Part shown: piece by piece, positions 5,279 through 17,971 of the stretch
Layout: every line of letters starts with the position of its first letter
How positions within the stretch are numbered: the stretch's first letter is position 1
From: a virus
Length of the DNA: 22,902 nucleotides
Reading direction: 5' to 3' (one strand)
Virus record (IMG/VR): IMGVR_UViG_3300022074_000400
Location: 1-22,902 of that record
Notes under the pieces: generated by a model
Seen by the model: only the letters and a program-made list of their open reading frames with translations
The model's database searches: none
Told to the model about the DNA's origin: nothing
Program-made: the position numbers and the translations under genes

Positions 5279-6532
5279 TTAGTACAGGCGGTATGTCGTA
5301 GTTCCCATGGCCTCGGGTTTGGCCAAGTTGAACTGCTGAAGCACAAGGTAGCCGAAGGCGTCGAATGCGTGGTCCACTCCAAGGTTTTTGTTAGGTAGGC
5401 CCGTTCCAGGGGCGTAGGTCAGGGTGCGGAGGGATTTAATGAGTTCTTTGCAGCGGGGGTGGATGTAAGTGCGGCGGGTGCCGGTTGCGTCGAGGAGGGC
5501 GGTGTTGACGGCGGTGATTTTGTCGCGGATTTTCCAGGGGGCTTTGGGGGATTGGACGGAGAAGCCGCTGCGGCGGAGGATGGTGTGGTCGGTGACGCCG
5601 ACGCCGCTGGTTTTGCGGGCGCCGCCGGTGGGGTCGGGGCAGGCGAATACGCGGCGGTCCACGCCGTAGCGGCGGGTGACTTCTTCGGCGAAGTCCCAGG
5701 TGGTGGCGCCGCCGCGCATCATGATTTCGTCGAAGACGTAGAGGGTGTCGTCTTTTTTGATGGCGCAGATGCCGCTCATTGGGTCGACGTTGAAGTCCAC
5801 GCCCAGCAGTAAAGGCAAGACAGATATGTCGTGGGCTTCCGTGGAGATGTTGATGTCGTCGAAACTTACGGCGACTAGGCCGCTTAAATTTTCGAAGGAT
5901 GCTTCGAATTCTTGGCGGAAGGTGCGGGCGTCTAGTTGGGCGCGGGCTGCTTCGATTTCGTGGGCTGGGACGTTGCCGCCTTGAATTGTTGTGTAGCACC
6001 AGCGGATCCAGTCGCCGGTTTTGTCTTCTTCGCAGAAGCACCACAGGTCGTAGAACCAGCTGGCCGTTCCATCCGGGGTGGATATGAATAATGCCCAGCC
6101 TTGTTTGTCGGCGAGGGCGGGACGAATGACCTCGAACCAGACTTCGGCGTCCATAAATGCGGCTTCGTCGAGTACAACTCCGGCGAGAGATCGGCCGCGA
6201 AGAGCCATGGCGTTTTCGGTGCCTTTTAGTTCGATTGTGGAGTCGTTTACTAGGTCGAGGCGGAGGTCGGTTTCGTTTTTGGAGCGAATGTATGACTTGG
6301 GAATTATCTTTTTTAGGGTTTTCCAGGCGATGTCTTTCGCCATTCGATAGGTGGGGGCGCAGTAAAAGAACGTTTCACCGGGGCGTTCCAGGGCTTTGGT
6401 GAATAGTTCGATGCAGGAAAGGTAGGATTTTCCGAAGCGACGGCCTGCGACGAGGACGCGGAATCTATTTTTGGCGCTAAATACTTCGCCTTGGGCGGGA
6501 CGAAGACTTATATCGAGCGTTTGTGGCGCCAA
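5279..6532 (-). CDS. terL: Terminase large subunit
   Basis: The 417-residue product is the DNA-packaging motor and headful or site-specific nuclease. The ATPase half shows a Walker A variant GRRFGKS (residues 30-36), an adenine-motif-like CAPTYRMAKD (58-66), Walker B VVLDEAAF (119-126) with catalytic Glu123, and motif III STPDG (151-155). The RNase H-like nuclease half starts with GVDFNVDP (244-251, Asp246 and Asp250 as metal ligands) and ends with DHAFDAFGYLV near residue 390. The length is normal. The start appears to be TTG at 6532, because an in-frame stop lies immediately upstream; no ATG is near. It follows the small subunit gene by eight bases. GC content in third positions is locally high, which opens long false frames on other strands. 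Confidence 0.93.
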   Translation of the reverse strand: MAPQTLDISLRPAQGEVFSAKNRFRVLVAGRRFGKSYLSCIELFTKALERPGETFFYCAPTYRMAKDIAWKTLKKIIPKSYIRSKNETDLRLDLVNDSTIELKGTENAMALRGRSLAGVVLDEAAFMDAEVWFEVIRPALADKQGWALFISTPDGTASWFYDLWCFCEEDKTGDWIRWCYTTIQGGNVPAHEIEAARAQLDARTFRQEFEASFENLSGLVAVSFDDINISTEAHDISVLPLLLGVDFNVDPMSGICAIKKDDTLYVFDEIMMRGGATTWDFAEEVTRRYGVDRRVFACPDPTGGARKTSGVGVTDHTILRRSGFSVQSPKAPWKIRDKITAVNTALLDATGTRRTYIHPRCKELIKSLRTLTYAPGTGLPNKNLGVDHAFDAFGYLVLQQFNLAKPEAMGTTTYRLY

Positions 6533-12504: not shown

Positions 12505-14934
12505 ATGAATCTCGCTGATTTCGTAAGGACTCTGCCCAAAAACTGGGCCACCGCACCGATCTATGCCGAGGGCGTAAAACTGCCTGGCGAAAAAGGTGGC
12601 GTGGCCTGCGGTAAGCAGCCTCTGGGTAGGGCGCATCACGAGAACCTCAGCCCACATGCTTCTGCTCGCTATATCGAGCGGCACCCCGACACCTACAAGG
12701 CGATCGGCGTGTTTACCGGTCCGCGTAGTGATGGCTTGGTGATCCTTGACGTTGACGCCAATCTTCCGTCGCTGAAAAGAAAGTTTGGAGCCACCCTCAA
12801 AAATGCTCCGGTTGTTGTTTCTCCCAGAAAAAACGCTGCCAAATATCTGTTCCGAGTGCCTAAGGAAAAATGGGGCCTGGTTGCTGGGATCAGCTTGAAA
12901 GCCAGCGGACAGGGCTGGGAGGTTTTGTGGGGCATACGCAAACAAGGACTTGTAGGGGGCGCCTATTACAAAGGTGGGGAATACAAACTCTCGGGCGATG
13001 TGAACGCCCTTCCAGAGGCTCCTGAGTGGCTTCTGGTGGAGATGGAGGAGTCCTTCAAAAAGCAACAGAGCGGAACAAGCAGATCACAAAAGAAAGATCT
13101 TCGTTACAGCTGCCGTTCCAGGGAGGAGAAAATTGCCCTTGCTGAGAACTGTTTGTCTGTCATCCCTCCGCAAGGACGAGGGTCTGATTACTCCTGGTGG
13201 CGCATCGGCGCGATGCTGCATTCCGAGCTGCCGAATGAAGATGGCTTAAACATCTGGCGGCAATGGTCGCAGAAAGACGAGGAGTATGCCGACGATTGGA
13301 AGAAAGGTGATCCCTGTGTTGACCGTTGGGAGGCGGGTTTCAAAGCTGACGGAGGGCTGAGTTTTGGCAGCTTGATGCACCTGGCAAATGAATACGACCC
13401 GGAGAAAACCCGATTTCAAGGGAACAATCTTGCATCGGTTGTGGCAGAGATCGAAACAGCGCCGACCCGTTACAGGCAGGAGATCCTCTCGTATGAGGAG
13501 GCGATGAATCAGATGAAGGAAGCCATGGATATTGAAAATCCAGGCAAACGTAATTACGAGATAAACCGCATTAAAAATGAGGCTGGTTACAAAGATCAGT
13601 CAAAACTTGAGGGCGTTTACGTTGACCACATTGGGTACATAGAAGACACCGGTGGGTTCACCTTGGATCAACTTAAATCGAAGGTTGAAAAACGAGACTT
13701 TCTAATTCCTGACGTTTTGGCAACACCTGCAGTAGTCGTGATTTATGCGGAAGGCGGTAAGGGCAAATCCACTGCTGCTTGGACGCTGGCTAAGCACGTT
13801 GTCACTGGATCACCTTTTGTTGTCCGGGGCAAGCACGCTCCTGTGGCTAAAGGCGGTTGTGTGATTCTCAACGGCGACCAGCCGCTGGCCGATTTGGATG
13901 ATCAGCTCGATGAAGTTGAGTTTCCGCGCACAAAAAATGTGCATATCGAGCCCAACTGGAACTTGGGGAATTACGCCCAGTTTCAGAATTTGCTGAAAAA
14001 AAGGGAGCCAAAACTTGTGATCATCGACTCCCTGATTGGTTGCTCCGGTGGTCGGGCGTTTGACGAGAACAAGTCTGACTTTGCCACGCCGCTGTACTGG
14101 TTGACCCGCAACAACGGCACCCTGTTCCCACGGACCACCATCCTGATCATTCACCACGCCAACAAGCAGGGCGGCTTCAGAGGCACCTCAGCCATCCGTG
14201 ACGCCGTTACAGAGACCTGGAGGCTTGCTGAGCCCACGGACAAGCAGGTTGAGGAGGAGATCGCTCCACGGCACAGCCGGATCATCCACGTGGAGAAGAG
14301 CCGGAGCGGCAGGAGCGGCACGGCGCTGATCATGCGGCAAGAGTCTGATCTGACTTTCTCGATCGCGGACTTCACTGCAGAGATCGACAGCACCAACACG
14401 TCGCCCAGCGGGATCACTGATCGCGTTTTATCGCGCGTTAGATCGATCTACCCACGCTCCATCAGTCGAACTGAGCTGAACGCGGATCCGATTGTTGGCG
14501 GCAATGTCACAGCAATTCGTAAGGCACTGCAACGCTGGGTCAGTCGGGGTCTGATTACGGCTAACGAGGCTGCCGTTCCAGGTAAGAAAGGCGGTAAAGC
14601 TCCGCTGCTTTACACAGCTGTTGTTGTACAACCCCCACACACGCGCGTGCGCGGAGAGGTTGAAGATAGTGTCCCATTGGGGGAAGAACCCAGTGATGGC
14701 GCGGCTTCTGCAATGGGACAATCAATGGGACACCAGCCAAAATCAGAGGGGGTGTCCCATTCACCTCAGAGCAATGGGACACTTTCCGAAAAAGAGGCTG
14801 GGTGTCCCATTGCTAAAGCGCCTGATACCAAGGGATCTGCCTCAATGGGACAATCAGATCAATATCCCCGCGCGAGGCGTTCATTTGAAGAGATTAACCG
14901 CTTAATGCGCCAAGCGGGGTCTAAATGGGACTGA
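12505..14934 (+). CDS. Primase-polymerase / helicase fusion, replication initiator
   Basis: The 809-residue product joins an N-terminal prim-pol primase to a RecA-type helicase. The primase part (about residues 1-190) has GLVILDVDAN (residues 77-86), the acidic hDhD metal site, and SPRKNAAKYLFRVP. A PriCT-like linker follows (about 210-310, DYSWWRIGAMLHSELPNEDGLNIWRQWS). The helicase resembles the RepA/AAA_25 group: Walker A YAEGGKGKST (about 414-423), Walker B KLVIIDSLIG (about 503-512), and TTILIIHHANKQGGFRGTSAI as the sensor region. A short winged-helix-like segment (about 640-700) precedes a low-complexity tail of roughly 90 residues whose DNA is packed with AATGGGAC iterons. It probably primes and unwinds for the family A polymerase. 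ATG start, no Shine-Dalgarno sequence seen. Confidence 0.9.
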   Translation: MNLADFVRTLPKNWATAPIYAEGVKLPGEKGGVACGKQPLGRAHHENLSPHASARYIERHPDTYKAIGVFTGPRSDGLVILDVDANLPSLKRKFGATLKNAPVVVSPRKNAAKYLFRVPKEKWGLVAGISLKASGQGWEVLWGIRKQGLVGGAYYKGGEYKLSGDVNALPEAPEWLLVEMEESFKKQQSGTSRSQKKDLRYSCRSREEKIALAENCLSVIPPQGRGSDYSWWRIGAMLHSELPNEDGLNIWRQWSQKDEEYADDWKKGDPCVDRWEAGFKADGGLSFGSLMHLANEYDPEKTRFQGNNLASVVAEIETAPTRYRQEILSYEEAMNQMKEAMDIENPGKRNYEINRIKNEAGYKDQSKLEGVYVDHIGYIEDTGGFTLDQLKSKVEKRDFLIPDVLATPAVVVIYAEGGKGKSTAAWTLAKHVVTGSPFVVRGKHAPVAKGGCVILNGDQPLADLDDQLDEVEFPRTKNVHIEPNWNLGNYAQFQNLLKKREPKLVIIDSLIGCSGGRAFDENKSDFATPLYWLTRNNGTLFPRTTILIIHHANKQGGFRGTSAIRDAVTETWRLAEPTDKQVEEEIAPRHSRIIHVEKSRSGRSGTALIMRQESDLTFSIADFTAEIDSTNTSPSGITDRVLSRVRSIYPRSISRTELNADPIVGGNVTAIRKALQRWVSRGLITANEAAVPGKKGGKAPLLYTAVVVQPPHTRVRGEVEDSVPLGEEPSDGAASAMGQSMGHQPKSEGVSHSPQSNGTLSEKEAGCPIAKAPDTKGSASMGQSDQYPRARRSFEEINRLMRQAGSKWD
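14671..14931. repeat. Eight AATGGGAC/GTCCCATT iterons, candidate replication origin
   Basis: AATGGGAC occurs at 14712-14719, 14724-14731, 14773-14780, 14844-14851 and 14924-14931; its complement GTCCCATT occurs at 14671-14678, 14754-14761 and 14804-14811. Most copies extend to CAATGGGACA. Copies at 14752-14761 and 14773-14782 form a perfect 10-bp inverted repeat. Because the copies are in both orientations and several reading frames (read as SVPL, AMGQ, VSH, SNGT, GCPI and KWD), selection must act on DNA. Position inside the 3' end of a prim-pol/helicase gene recalls SaPI-type origins lying next to their initiator gene. The last copy contains the next gene's start codon and ends one base into the primase stop codon. 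Confidence 0.8.
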
Positions 14935-15287
14935 CCGAAAAGGATCGGTTCCGCAAGTGGGAGGCCCAGCTCCAGGAATGGATGCCGGAGCCTCCCTCTA
15001 ATTGGCGAGACATCTTTGCCCTGCGTGACTACGTTCGGCAGGTAGCCAAAAAAGCAGAGCACCGTTATTGTGCTATTATACTAAAGCCGCTTCTTTTTGC
15101 CGTGACTGAAAGGCAAACCCTGGCGAGCATTAGGACGGCCCACCAATACGGTGGGTCGTTCATCAGCAAATTGGCTGAAGCAGCCTTGGCCGGGGATCCA
15201 CGCAATCGGGATCGCGTTTTACGCGCATTTCCTGAGATCGTTGCTCGTTACGGACCAGGCAGTGCCTTTTACACCGAAACACTTTGA
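14925..15287 (+). CDS. Hypothetical protein, 120 aa
   Basis: The start ATG lies within the last AATGGGAC iteron, overlapping the end of the primase/helicase gene by 10 bp. The product contains NWRDIFALRDYVRQVAKKAEHRYCAIILKPLLFAVTERQTLASIRTAHQYGGSFISKLAEAALAGDPRNRDRVLRAFPEI and is mostly helical; the ending RYGPGSAFY has the look of a conserved phage motif. No domain recognised. Adjacent location suggests a role in replication, for example at initiation or helicase loading, but this is only context. If a regulator bound the last iteron, this gene's translation start would be at the site. Confidence 0.65.
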   Translation: MGLTEKDRFRKWEAQLQEWMPEPPSNWRDIFALRDYVRQVAKKAEHRYCAIILKPLLFAVTERQTLASIRTAHQYGGSFISKLAEAALAGDPRNRDRVLRAFPEIVARYGPGSAFYTETL

Positions 15288-15893: not shown

Positions 15894-16154
15894 ATGTCTG
15901 ATTCAGCTGCCCTTTACAGGGCCAAAGAAAACCTCCGCATGTTGGAGACCTGCCCCACTTGGTACGACCACCTAGACAAGGTCGAAGCCGCAATAGCGGA
16001 GCACGACCGCATTTACGAGATCCGCACCGCTGCTGGCTGGGAAGCAGATGAAGGCGGCTGGTACGCTCCACACCCTGACAATCCCGACGAGATGATCCCT
16101 GAATGGGAGTGGGAGTGTGAAACCGGTGGCCCTCTGCCCGAGGACGTGAAATGA
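15894..16154 (+). CDS. Hypothetical acidic protein, 86 aa
   Basis: The N-terminal half is helical (AALYRAKENLRMLETCPTWYDHLDKVEAAIAEHDRIYEIRTAAG). The C-terminal half is acidic and Trp-rich (WEADEGGWYAPHPDNPDEMIPEWEWECETGG). The stop overlaps the DNA polymerase start by four bases (ATGA), so translation is coupled and stoichiometry with the polymerase may matter. A polymerase accessory protein is possible but unsupported by any recognised motif. ATG start, no Shine-Dalgarno sequence seen; a possible promoter lies just upstream. Confidence 0.65.
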   Translation: MSDSAALYRAKENLRMLETCPTWYDHLDKVEAAIAEHDRIYEIRTAAGWEADEGGWYAPHPDNPDEMIPEWEWECETGGPLPEDVK

Positions 16155-17971
16155 GCTACCAAGTCTTGTTCGGTATGGAGCACCTCTCCAAGCTCGATAC
16201 CGCTATAAGCGTGTGCTTTGACACGGAGACGTGCCAGCTTCAGCCAGAAATGGGAAAGCTGCGGCTGCTTCAGCTCGGCTGCCAAAACCGAAAGATTATT
16301 GTGGTCATTGATTTTTTCCAAACAGATGAAAGCGACTGGAATAGTTTGCGGCGCTTCTTCAGCAATGGAGAGCGCCACTGGCTTGCCCATAACGCTGTGT
16401 TTGATATTGCGTGGTTGCAAGAGTACGGAATCCACCCAAATACGGAGTTCCTGGGCTGCTCCATGCTTGCCAGCCGCTTGTTATCTAACGGAAAAACTGG
16501 CAGAAAGCACGGTCTCGCAGATGTTGTAAATGAGTATTTAAAAATTAAATTAGACAAGGAACAACAAAAGTCTAACTGGGCAGGCACTTTAACTGAACAG
16601 CAGAAAACTTATGCCGCAAAAGATGTGGAGGTTTTGTGCGAGCTAGACCTAATTTTGAAAGACGAGCTTTGTCAATACAATTTAATGGAAGCCTTTAAAC
16701 TAGAGTGTAAGGCGTTGCCTGCTATGGCACAGATGTGGCGAACAGGTTTGCCGTGGAACAAAGAGAATCTCGCGCAAAGAAAGTTAGATTACGAGCACGA
16801 TATAAAAGAGTTGTCTAAAGAGTTTATTAGGGAGATTGATTCAGCCTTACCCGAAGGCCAAAAGCTGCCTAGAGATGAAGATGATTCTTTTAACCTACGT
16901 GCCAAGGACGAGGGTAGCGTTAGAGCGGGTACTAAAAAGCTTAAGGGCTTTAATTTGAACAGTCCTCAGCAGTTGAAGAGTAAGCTCTCCGCTGTTCTCA
17001 AGGTGGAACTTGAGGGCGTATCTAAGAAGGCGCTTAGCGAGTTTGCTGGGCACCACCCCGTTGTTCAGATGTATTTGAATTGGAAGAAGGCTGAAAAGAG
17101 GCGGCAGATGATTACTTCGATTCAGGAAAAGATGCGCCCTGATGGGTTTGTGAAAGCCAGCTACATGCAGCTCGGTGCTGAAACAGGGCGTATGACTTGT
17201 TTTAATCCGAACAATCAGCAGATACCGAAGGACAAACAGTTTCGTGGTTGCGTAGAAGCGCCGGAAGGTTGGTTGATTGTTGACGCTGACTTTGGTCAGA
17301 TGGAGCTGCGTTTAGCGGCAGCTGTAGCGCAGGACAAGAAGATGATCCAGGCGTTTAAAGACGGGGAGGATCTGCATACAGTGACCGCTGAAGCCATTGG
17401 GTGTACGCGGCAGATTGCCAAGTCTGCCAATTTTGGCCTTCTGTACGGGTCCGGAGCTAAGGGTCTTCGTAATTACGCTGCTGGGAGCGGCGTAAGTATG
17501 ACTTTAGAAGAAGCGAAAAAAGTTAGAACTAACTGGTTTAAAGAGTTTGAGGGCATAGCTGAATGGCATAAAGAAGAGAACAAAATAGCTAATAACCCCA
17601 ATCCCAGAATTAAAGGTAAGTGTGGCATTCAGCATATAGAAATACCGGAAACCGGTATGACTAGGTATTTGCCTGGTGATGCAAACCGTCTGACTGTTCG
17701 TTGTAACACACCTGTTCAAGGGGCTGGTGCGGCGATTCTTAAGCACGCCTTAGGCAAGCTTTGGCCGCTTGTCAAAGAAGCGGGGGAAAGAACGGTCCGC
17801 ATCGCGGCTGCGGTGCATGACGAAATTCTGTTGCTTGTTAGGGAAGATGCTGCTGAAGAGTGGGCGGCGACCCTAAAACAGGTGATGGAAGAGGCAGAGG
17901 CCAAGTGGCTGGACGAGATTCCTGCTTTGGCTGAGGTGTCTTTCGGCAAAACCTGGCAGGAGACCCACTGA
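16151..17971 (+). CDS. Family A DNA polymerase with 3'-5' exonuclease
   Basis: The 606-residue product has the proofreading exonuclease and polymerase domains of family A without a 5'-nuclease. Exo I is FDTETCQL (Asp24, Glu26), Exo II HNAVFDIAW (about residue 79-87), and Exo III YAAKDVEVL (about 156-164). Polymerase motif A is VDADFGQMELR (about 377-387), motif B RQIAKSANFGLLYG (about 420-433) and motif C VHDEILL (about 555-561). Motif A has Phe-Gly where many relatives have Tyr-Ser. The residue equivalent to E. coli Phe762 is Phe, which viral surveys have linked to lytic phages. Replication enzyme paired with the upstream primase/helicase. The ATG overlaps the preceding stop, and the TGA overlaps the next ATG. 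Confidence 0.95.
   Translation: MSYQVLFGMEHLSKLDTAISVCFDTETCQLQPEMGKLRLLQLGCQNRKIIVVIDFFQTDESDWNSLRRFFSNGERHWLAHNAVFDIAWLQEYGIHPNTEFLGCSMLASRLLSNGKTGRKHGLADVVNEYLKIKLDKEQQKSNWAGTLTEQQKTYAAKDVEVLCELDLILKDELCQYNLMEAFKLECKALPAMAQMWRTGLPWNKENLAQRKLDYEHDIKELSKEFIREIDSALPEGQKLPRDEDDSFNLRAKDEGSVRAGTKKLKGFNLNSPQQLKSKLSAVLKVELEGVSKKALSEFAGHHPVVQMYLNWKKAEKRRQMITSIQEKMRPDGFVKASYMQLGAETGRMTCFNPNNQQIPKDKQFRGCVEAPEGWLIVDADFGQMELRLAAAVAQDKKMIQAFKDGEDLHTVTAEAIGCTRQIAKSANFGLLYGSGAKGLRNYAAGSGVSMTLEEAKKVRTNWFKEFEGIAEWHKEENKIANNPNPRIKGKCGIQHIEIPETGMTRYLPGDANRLTVRCNTPVQGAGAAILKHALGKLWPLVKEAGERTVRIAAAVHDEILLLVREDAAEEWAATLKQVMEEAEAKWLDEIPALAEVSFGKTWQETH

Follow-up and report, generated by a model that had tools for sequence, protein, structure and literature searches.

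Does a phage initiator carry its replication origin inside its own coding sequence? The question is raised by an octamer clustered at the 3' end of a primase/helicase gene in the virus record IMGVR_UViG_3300022074_000400 (IMG/VR), of which positions 1 to 22,902 were analysed (22,902 b, here called the window). A preliminary description of this DNA had read eight octamers as iterons bound by the helicase itself and had proposed an origin within the gene of its own initiator. With considerable confidence, we interpret seven of these octamers as iterons of the helicase winged helix, forming a replication origin or an initiator-assembly site in the coding tail of the same gene.

The octamer array and its helicase gene

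The window contains portal, terminase, head, exonuclease, SSB-like and PolA genes in addition to the helicase gene, and the features relevant to the array are as follows.

5279-6532, terminase, far from the array
12505..14934, + strand, prim-pol / PriCT_2 / AAA_25 helicase gene (Pfam), 809 aa plus stop, the proposed initiator
14413..14619, + strand, C-terminal winged helix, about residues 637-705 (AlphaFold2 model)
14506-14547, + strand, predicted recognition helix H3, residues 668-681
14518..14520, + strand, R672 codon; of all protein columns, this residue covaries best with octamer positions 2 and 3
14671..14678, - strand, iteron 1, exact AATGGGAC
14712..14719, + strand, iteron 2, exact AATGGGAC
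14724..14731, + strand, iteron 3, exact AATGGGAC
14754..14761, - strand, iteron 4, exact AATGGGAC
14773..14780, + strand, iteron 5, exact AATGGGAC
14804..14811, - strand, iteron 6, exact AATGGGAC
14844..14851, + strand, iteron 7, exact AATGGGAC
14924..14931, + strand, eighth AATGGGAC copy, Trp-Asp codons at the C-terminal tip, probably not an iteron
16151..17971, + strand, family A DNA polymerase (Pfam DNA_pol_A and exonuclease), presumed to be the elongating polymerase of the phage

As first described, eight exact copies of AATGGGAC, five direct and three inverted, lie at 14671-14931, and none was found elsewhere in the 22,902-b record. Dinucleotide shuffling of the whole window gave a mean of 0.8 copies (100 shuffles, largest 4), synonymous-codon shuffling of the gene tail gave a mean of 0.57 (5,000 shuffles, maximum 4), and AATGGGAC was the most clustered 8-mer of the window, with 8 copies in 300 bp compared to 3 for the next unrelated 8-mer. 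The copies extend to CAATGGGACA in six cases and to AATGGGACA in seven and, again as described earlier, occupy all three frames and both orientations of what is coding DNA for a fast-evolving protein tail. The start-to-start spacings of 41, 12, 30, 19, 31, 40 and 80 were reproduced, corresponding to 3.9, 1.1, 2.9, 1.8, 3.0, 3.8 and 7.6 turns at 10.5 bp per turn; as they are only loosely periodic, the proposal that they lie near multiples of a helical turn was dropped and no weight was given to helical phasing. At 14640-14660 and 14866-14876, on either side of the array, lie GC stretches of alternating purines and pyrimidines (cacgcgcgtgcgcgg, cccgcgcgagg), and stretches of a similar kind lie beside the arrays of other phages (L010, L022, L036).

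In the helicase, Pfam domains were assigned to residues 14-175 (Prim-Pol), 214-294 (PriCT_2) and 387-556 (AAA_25), followed by the winged helix and a variable tail. An AlphaFold2 model of residues 603-712 had a pLDDT of 74-88 over the winged-helix part, and its Foldseek matches, with weak E-values, included winged helices of the MarR and PadR families; R672 is placed by the model in the third helix, which is the usual recognition helix. The earlier parallel with SaPI-type elements and phage P4 held for iterons at the initiator's own gene and failed for the type of helicase: Pfam places the protein in the AAA_25, Prim-Pol and PriCT_2 families and not in DUF927 / D5, and instead of a TOPRIM primase fused to an SF3 helicase (the P4 alpha type) there is a prim-pol with AAA_25. 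As in SaPI-type systems, the element encodes a helicase with a C-terminal DNA-binding domain, here the predicted winged helix. Among named phages no relative covering most of the protein was found, the best being S-CBS4 with 29% identity over the ATPase.

Conservation of the array in relatives

Pattern scans of viral DNA returned 58 stretches for a two-copy inverted pattern and 67 for a three-copy pattern, many with 4-14 copies in under 600 bp and often beside replication helicases of differing kinds (AAA_25 prim-pol, VapE and others). Shuffle controls are unfair to such loci, as they were selected for the motif, and the argument rests on relatives fetched by protein only, which gave a main sample of 103 prim-pol/AAA_25 helicases, non-redundant at 95% and almost all from uncultured contigs. 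A scan of bacterial genomes also matched some Bacillota MAGs (L127, L136 and others) at chromosomal TGGGACA...TGTCCCA palindromes, of which two lie close to a transposase-like gene (MLRGxN...). The palindromes are probably REP-type elements with no relation to the phage arrays, and because of this resemblance the Bacillota loci were left out of the statistics. In the open-licence literature, no description of the TGTCCCA motif as a phage iteron was found.

The array and its conservation at the DNA level were directly observed. In 93/103 relatives a de novo octamer array scoring above the best of 40 shuffles was found just after the winged-helix domain, so that, as in SaPI-type systems, multiple short iterons lie at the 3' end of the helicase gene or directly downstream. 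No clear array was found in some relatives (L004, S-CBS4), nor any in phage 7201. In most relatives the array lies within the open reading frame, in others it extends beyond the stop, and in some (L035, L038, L060) it is mostly noncoding and directly follows the helicase stop; a coding location is therefore not required. The density of TGGGACA in the first 79 relatives was 4.84/kb in the 3' tail compared to 0.063/kb elsewhere. At least three TGGGACA copies were present in only 35 of these 79, and most of the others had a different octamer in the same place (GGTGGACA, GCTGGACA, GGGGGACA, ATGCGACA or ATTGGACA), with the copies within one genome agreeing with each other. Between clades, the octamer NNNNGACA changes in concert, to ATGGGACA, GTGGGACA, GGTGGACA, GCTGGACA, GGGGGACA, ATAGGACA or ATGCGACA, and the order -++-+-+ of sites 1-7 is common to clades with different octamers.

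The preliminary description had suggested comparing the tail in relatives at the DNA and protein levels, and this comparison showed that the DNA sites are kept. Identity between relatives with the same octamer label was 0.925 (92.5%) in sites and 0.673 (67.3%) in spacers, a comparison that somewhat favours the sites, as sites were called by the motif in one member of each pair and the pairs were selected for a common label. At third codon positions the identity was 0.88 in sites compared to 0.67, with sites in every frame and orientation.

The eighth copy stood apart, and of the eight proposed iterons only the seven at 14671-14851 are retained as true iterons. It is spaced 80 from the seventh, has T where the final A would be, and specifies Trp-Asp just ahead of the stop. 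Relatives with iterons changed to GGTGGACA, GCTGGACA or GGGGGACA often still end the gene with TGGGA(C/T) before the stop, and Trp was found within the last four residues in 64/72 relatives with changed iterons, compared to 35 Trp among 6,885 other tail residues. Because the tip stays while the iterons of relatives change, we do not count the eighth copy as an iteron; it probably matches the octamer by coincidence, through the Trp-Asp codons of a conserved tip. The idea that the protein tail is a by-product of the origin accordingly does not hold for the extreme C-terminus, which is instead a conserved peptide. This tip (14865-14934) may be a protein-interaction motif, and an ATG at 14925, inside the eighth copy, could start the next open reading frame (14925-15287).

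Covariation of the octamer with a helicase residue

If the octamer is read by a trans-acting protein, a contact residue is expected to change when the octamer does. Among all columns of the helicase alignment, none predicted octamer positions 2 and 3 as well as column 672, and in a tree-aware count of co-changes this column ranked first of 684 testable columns for both positions (p of 2e-8 and 6e-7 with the full tree, 3e-6 and 6e-5 with a tree of the N-terminal 600 columns). R672 occurred with TG in 50/59 cases and K with GG in 7/9, Q with GT, CT or TT (xT) in 16/16, H with CT in 5/6, T with CT or GT in 3/3, and G with GT or A in 5/5. The exceptions include relatives with R at 672 but T at octamer position 3 (L222, L227, L230), and residues other than 672 must therefore matter too. 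Some pairs of proteins share 95-98% identity across the N-terminal 600 residues, yet their winged helix and iterons differ together. In the pair L481/L505, DNA identity was 84-96% up to the winged helix, fell to 62-71% over the winged helix and array, and returned to 88-94% beyond, as expected of an exchanged cassette of winged helix and iterons.

An independent replicate was obtained in VapE-type proteins, which have a Pfam helicase domain other than AAA_25. In eighty of these, fetched by protein, the 1.2 kb that follows the gene has TGGGACA at 2.5/kb, compared to 0.094/kb elsewhere; the densest arrays seen, in three VapE phages (L281, L282, L283), pack 15-18 TGGGACA into some 300-430 bp behind the helicase gene. 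A clear octamer was present in 42 non-redundant members, and in 42/42 it agreed with a single residue close to the C-terminus (the last residue of GWR[R/K], R or K), R occurring with TGGGAC (28/28) and K with TAGGAC or TTGGAC (14/14). The normalised mutual information of this residue, uncorrected for the tree, was 0.88, with 0.47 for the next of 582 variable columns. Taken with column 672, this indicated that the same octamer base is tracked by one C-terminal residue in two families.

Given this tracking in AAA_25 and VapE proteins, the helicase very probably recognises the sites through its own winged helix. That the protein encoded by the gene itself recognises them is the well-supported part of the reading, and both the concerted changes of the octamer and the covarying residue favour the original idea that the helicase recognises iterons in the 3' end of its own gene. 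As in SaPI-type systems, the C-terminal domain would set iteron specificity, here as judged by covariation.

We lean, by a narrow preference, towards a broader reading in which the two helicase families (AAA_25 prim-pol and VapE) share the iteron family NNNNGACA and read its variable bases largely through one residue (in AAA_25, R for TG, K for GG and Q or H mostly for xT; in VapE, R for TG and K for TA). These would make up a class of phage origins, widespread and mostly uncultured, located within the helicase gene or immediately behind it, in which winged helix and iterons are one exchangeable cassette and origin specificity would therefore be predictable from protein sequence. Such a test at the level of sequence, of which protein and which residue recognises a phage origin, is applicable to phages that have never been grown, and the locus would offer a case of an origin evolving within its own initiator's coding sequence under protein and DNA constraints together. 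Prediction of replication specificity from sequence bears on the compatibility of co-infecting phages, on parasitism of phages by satellites, and on origin-based phage resistance of the Sfi21 type.

Role of the array and comparison with known systems

If the array works like the SaPI Rep, SCCmec Cch2 and phage Sfi21 systems, replication would start there. Helicase monomers would bind the sites through the recognition helix, with R672 helping to read the TG of xTGGGACA, and, once bound, would assemble on the two-way array as a single ring or a pair of rings; opening of the DNA by the ATPase, priming by the prim-pol domain and extension by the phage PolA would follow. No extreme of GC skew and no AT-rich unwinding element or AT-rich step was seen at the array in seven long contigs, so neither adds support to an origin function. 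Of the proposed origin in the initiator's own coding sequence, it is the pairing of helicase and iterons that gained from the covariation, with nothing added by GC skew or AT content.

The lack of an AT-rich element or skew switch marking the array as a start would also suit a regulatory role, in which the helicase binds the sites for copy-number control, autoregulation or regulation of downstream genes, and replication starts elsewhere. Control of copy number by certain iteron sets is known from iteron plasmids, and the array lies at a gene end just before the next open reading frame. We consider such a role unlikely, since the same position is that of the experimentally studied SaPI origins (PMC7581432), the annotated Sfi21 origin and the pRN1 origin (PMC4234260), and no second octamer cluster was seen in 15 long contigs. 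A further alternative is that recognition of the origin depends mostly on a folded stem-loop, as has been proposed for pRN1, and that the octamers are no more than its paired arms. It was suggested by the strong folding of the window array as single-stranded DNA (z -4.7, and -3.0 with iterons fixed) and by the 100-nt stem-loop that pRN1 uses 3' of its prim-pol/helicase/winged-helix gene. When spacers were shuffled with iterons fixed in 40 arrays, however, the mean z was -0.6 and only 20% were below -2, and a stem-loop was rejected as a general feature of the arrays; as the octamer sequence also tracks a recognition-helix residue, this explanation is very improbable.

Equally slight is the chance that the octamers are packaging or regulatory sites recognised by some other protein of phage or host, for example the small subunit of the terminase. 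This would fit a group of enterobacterial prophages (L191, L143, L147 and relatives) in which 8-10 TGGGACA overlap the start of the gene for that subunit, with no VapE or DUF927 helicase found in the contigs, but in the window family the terminase (5279-6532) is far from the array, and the octamer is tracked by a helicase residue in both the AAA_25 and the VapE family. In the prophage group as a whole (L191, L143, L147, L142, L189, L159, L170; contigs L155, L143) arrays of 7-10 TGGGACA overlap or abut this terminase gene, which has a Nu1-like HTH start, and the L155 contig has a gene resembling an O-type replication protein about 10 kb from the array. These arrays are possibly terminase (cosB-like) sites using a similar octamer, and the octamer alone is therefore no proof of an origin.

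We infer an origin role for the window array from the position and logic that it shares with the Sfi21, SaPI and pRN1 origins, and consider it likely to be a SaPI/Sfi21-like origin embedded in the coding tail of its initiator. Iterons inside an initiator gene are also found in phage lambda, where ori lies in gene O; the O protein, which is no helicase itself, brings in DnaB by way of P, and lambda ori has an AT-rich element, whereas no AT-rich step was found at the array in seven contigs. The pRN1 protein ORF904 combines prim-pol, helicase and C-terminal winged helix, as does the window protein, and its origin likewise lies 3' of the gene (PMC4234260). It differs in having an SF3 helicase and a long stem-loop without iterons; in the window family the helicase is AAA_25, iterons are present and pairing of spacers is not general. 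SaPI origins (Ubeda et al. 2007, cited through PMC7581432) are described as downstream of the Rep gene. SaPI Rep and SCCmec Cch2 are self-loading initiator helicases whose C-terminal domain recognises short iterons directly downstream of their own gene, to which we liken the window; they have DUF927 or D5-type helicase domains and a downstream origin, in contrast to the prim-pol/AAA_25 protein with its array inside the coding tail. The record of Streptococcus phage Sfi21 (NC_000872, origin 34487-34784) annotates a 302-bp origin and phage-inhibitory sequence immediately 3' of the gene for a helicase whose C-terminal domain is of the D5 type. An AT-rich tract in this origin is surrounded by AGTAAC repeats of both orientations. 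Its position is that of the window array, but the repeat, the central AT-rich tract, the almost wholly noncoding location and the helicase family differ. The VapE phages with TGGGACA or TAGGACA arrays (L281, L307, L331, L327 and others) have another helicase type and an array 0.01-0.65 kb downstream of the gene, rather than inside an AAA_25 gene, but share with the window the octamer family and, with the AAA_25 family, the tracking of the same octamer base by one C-terminal residue.
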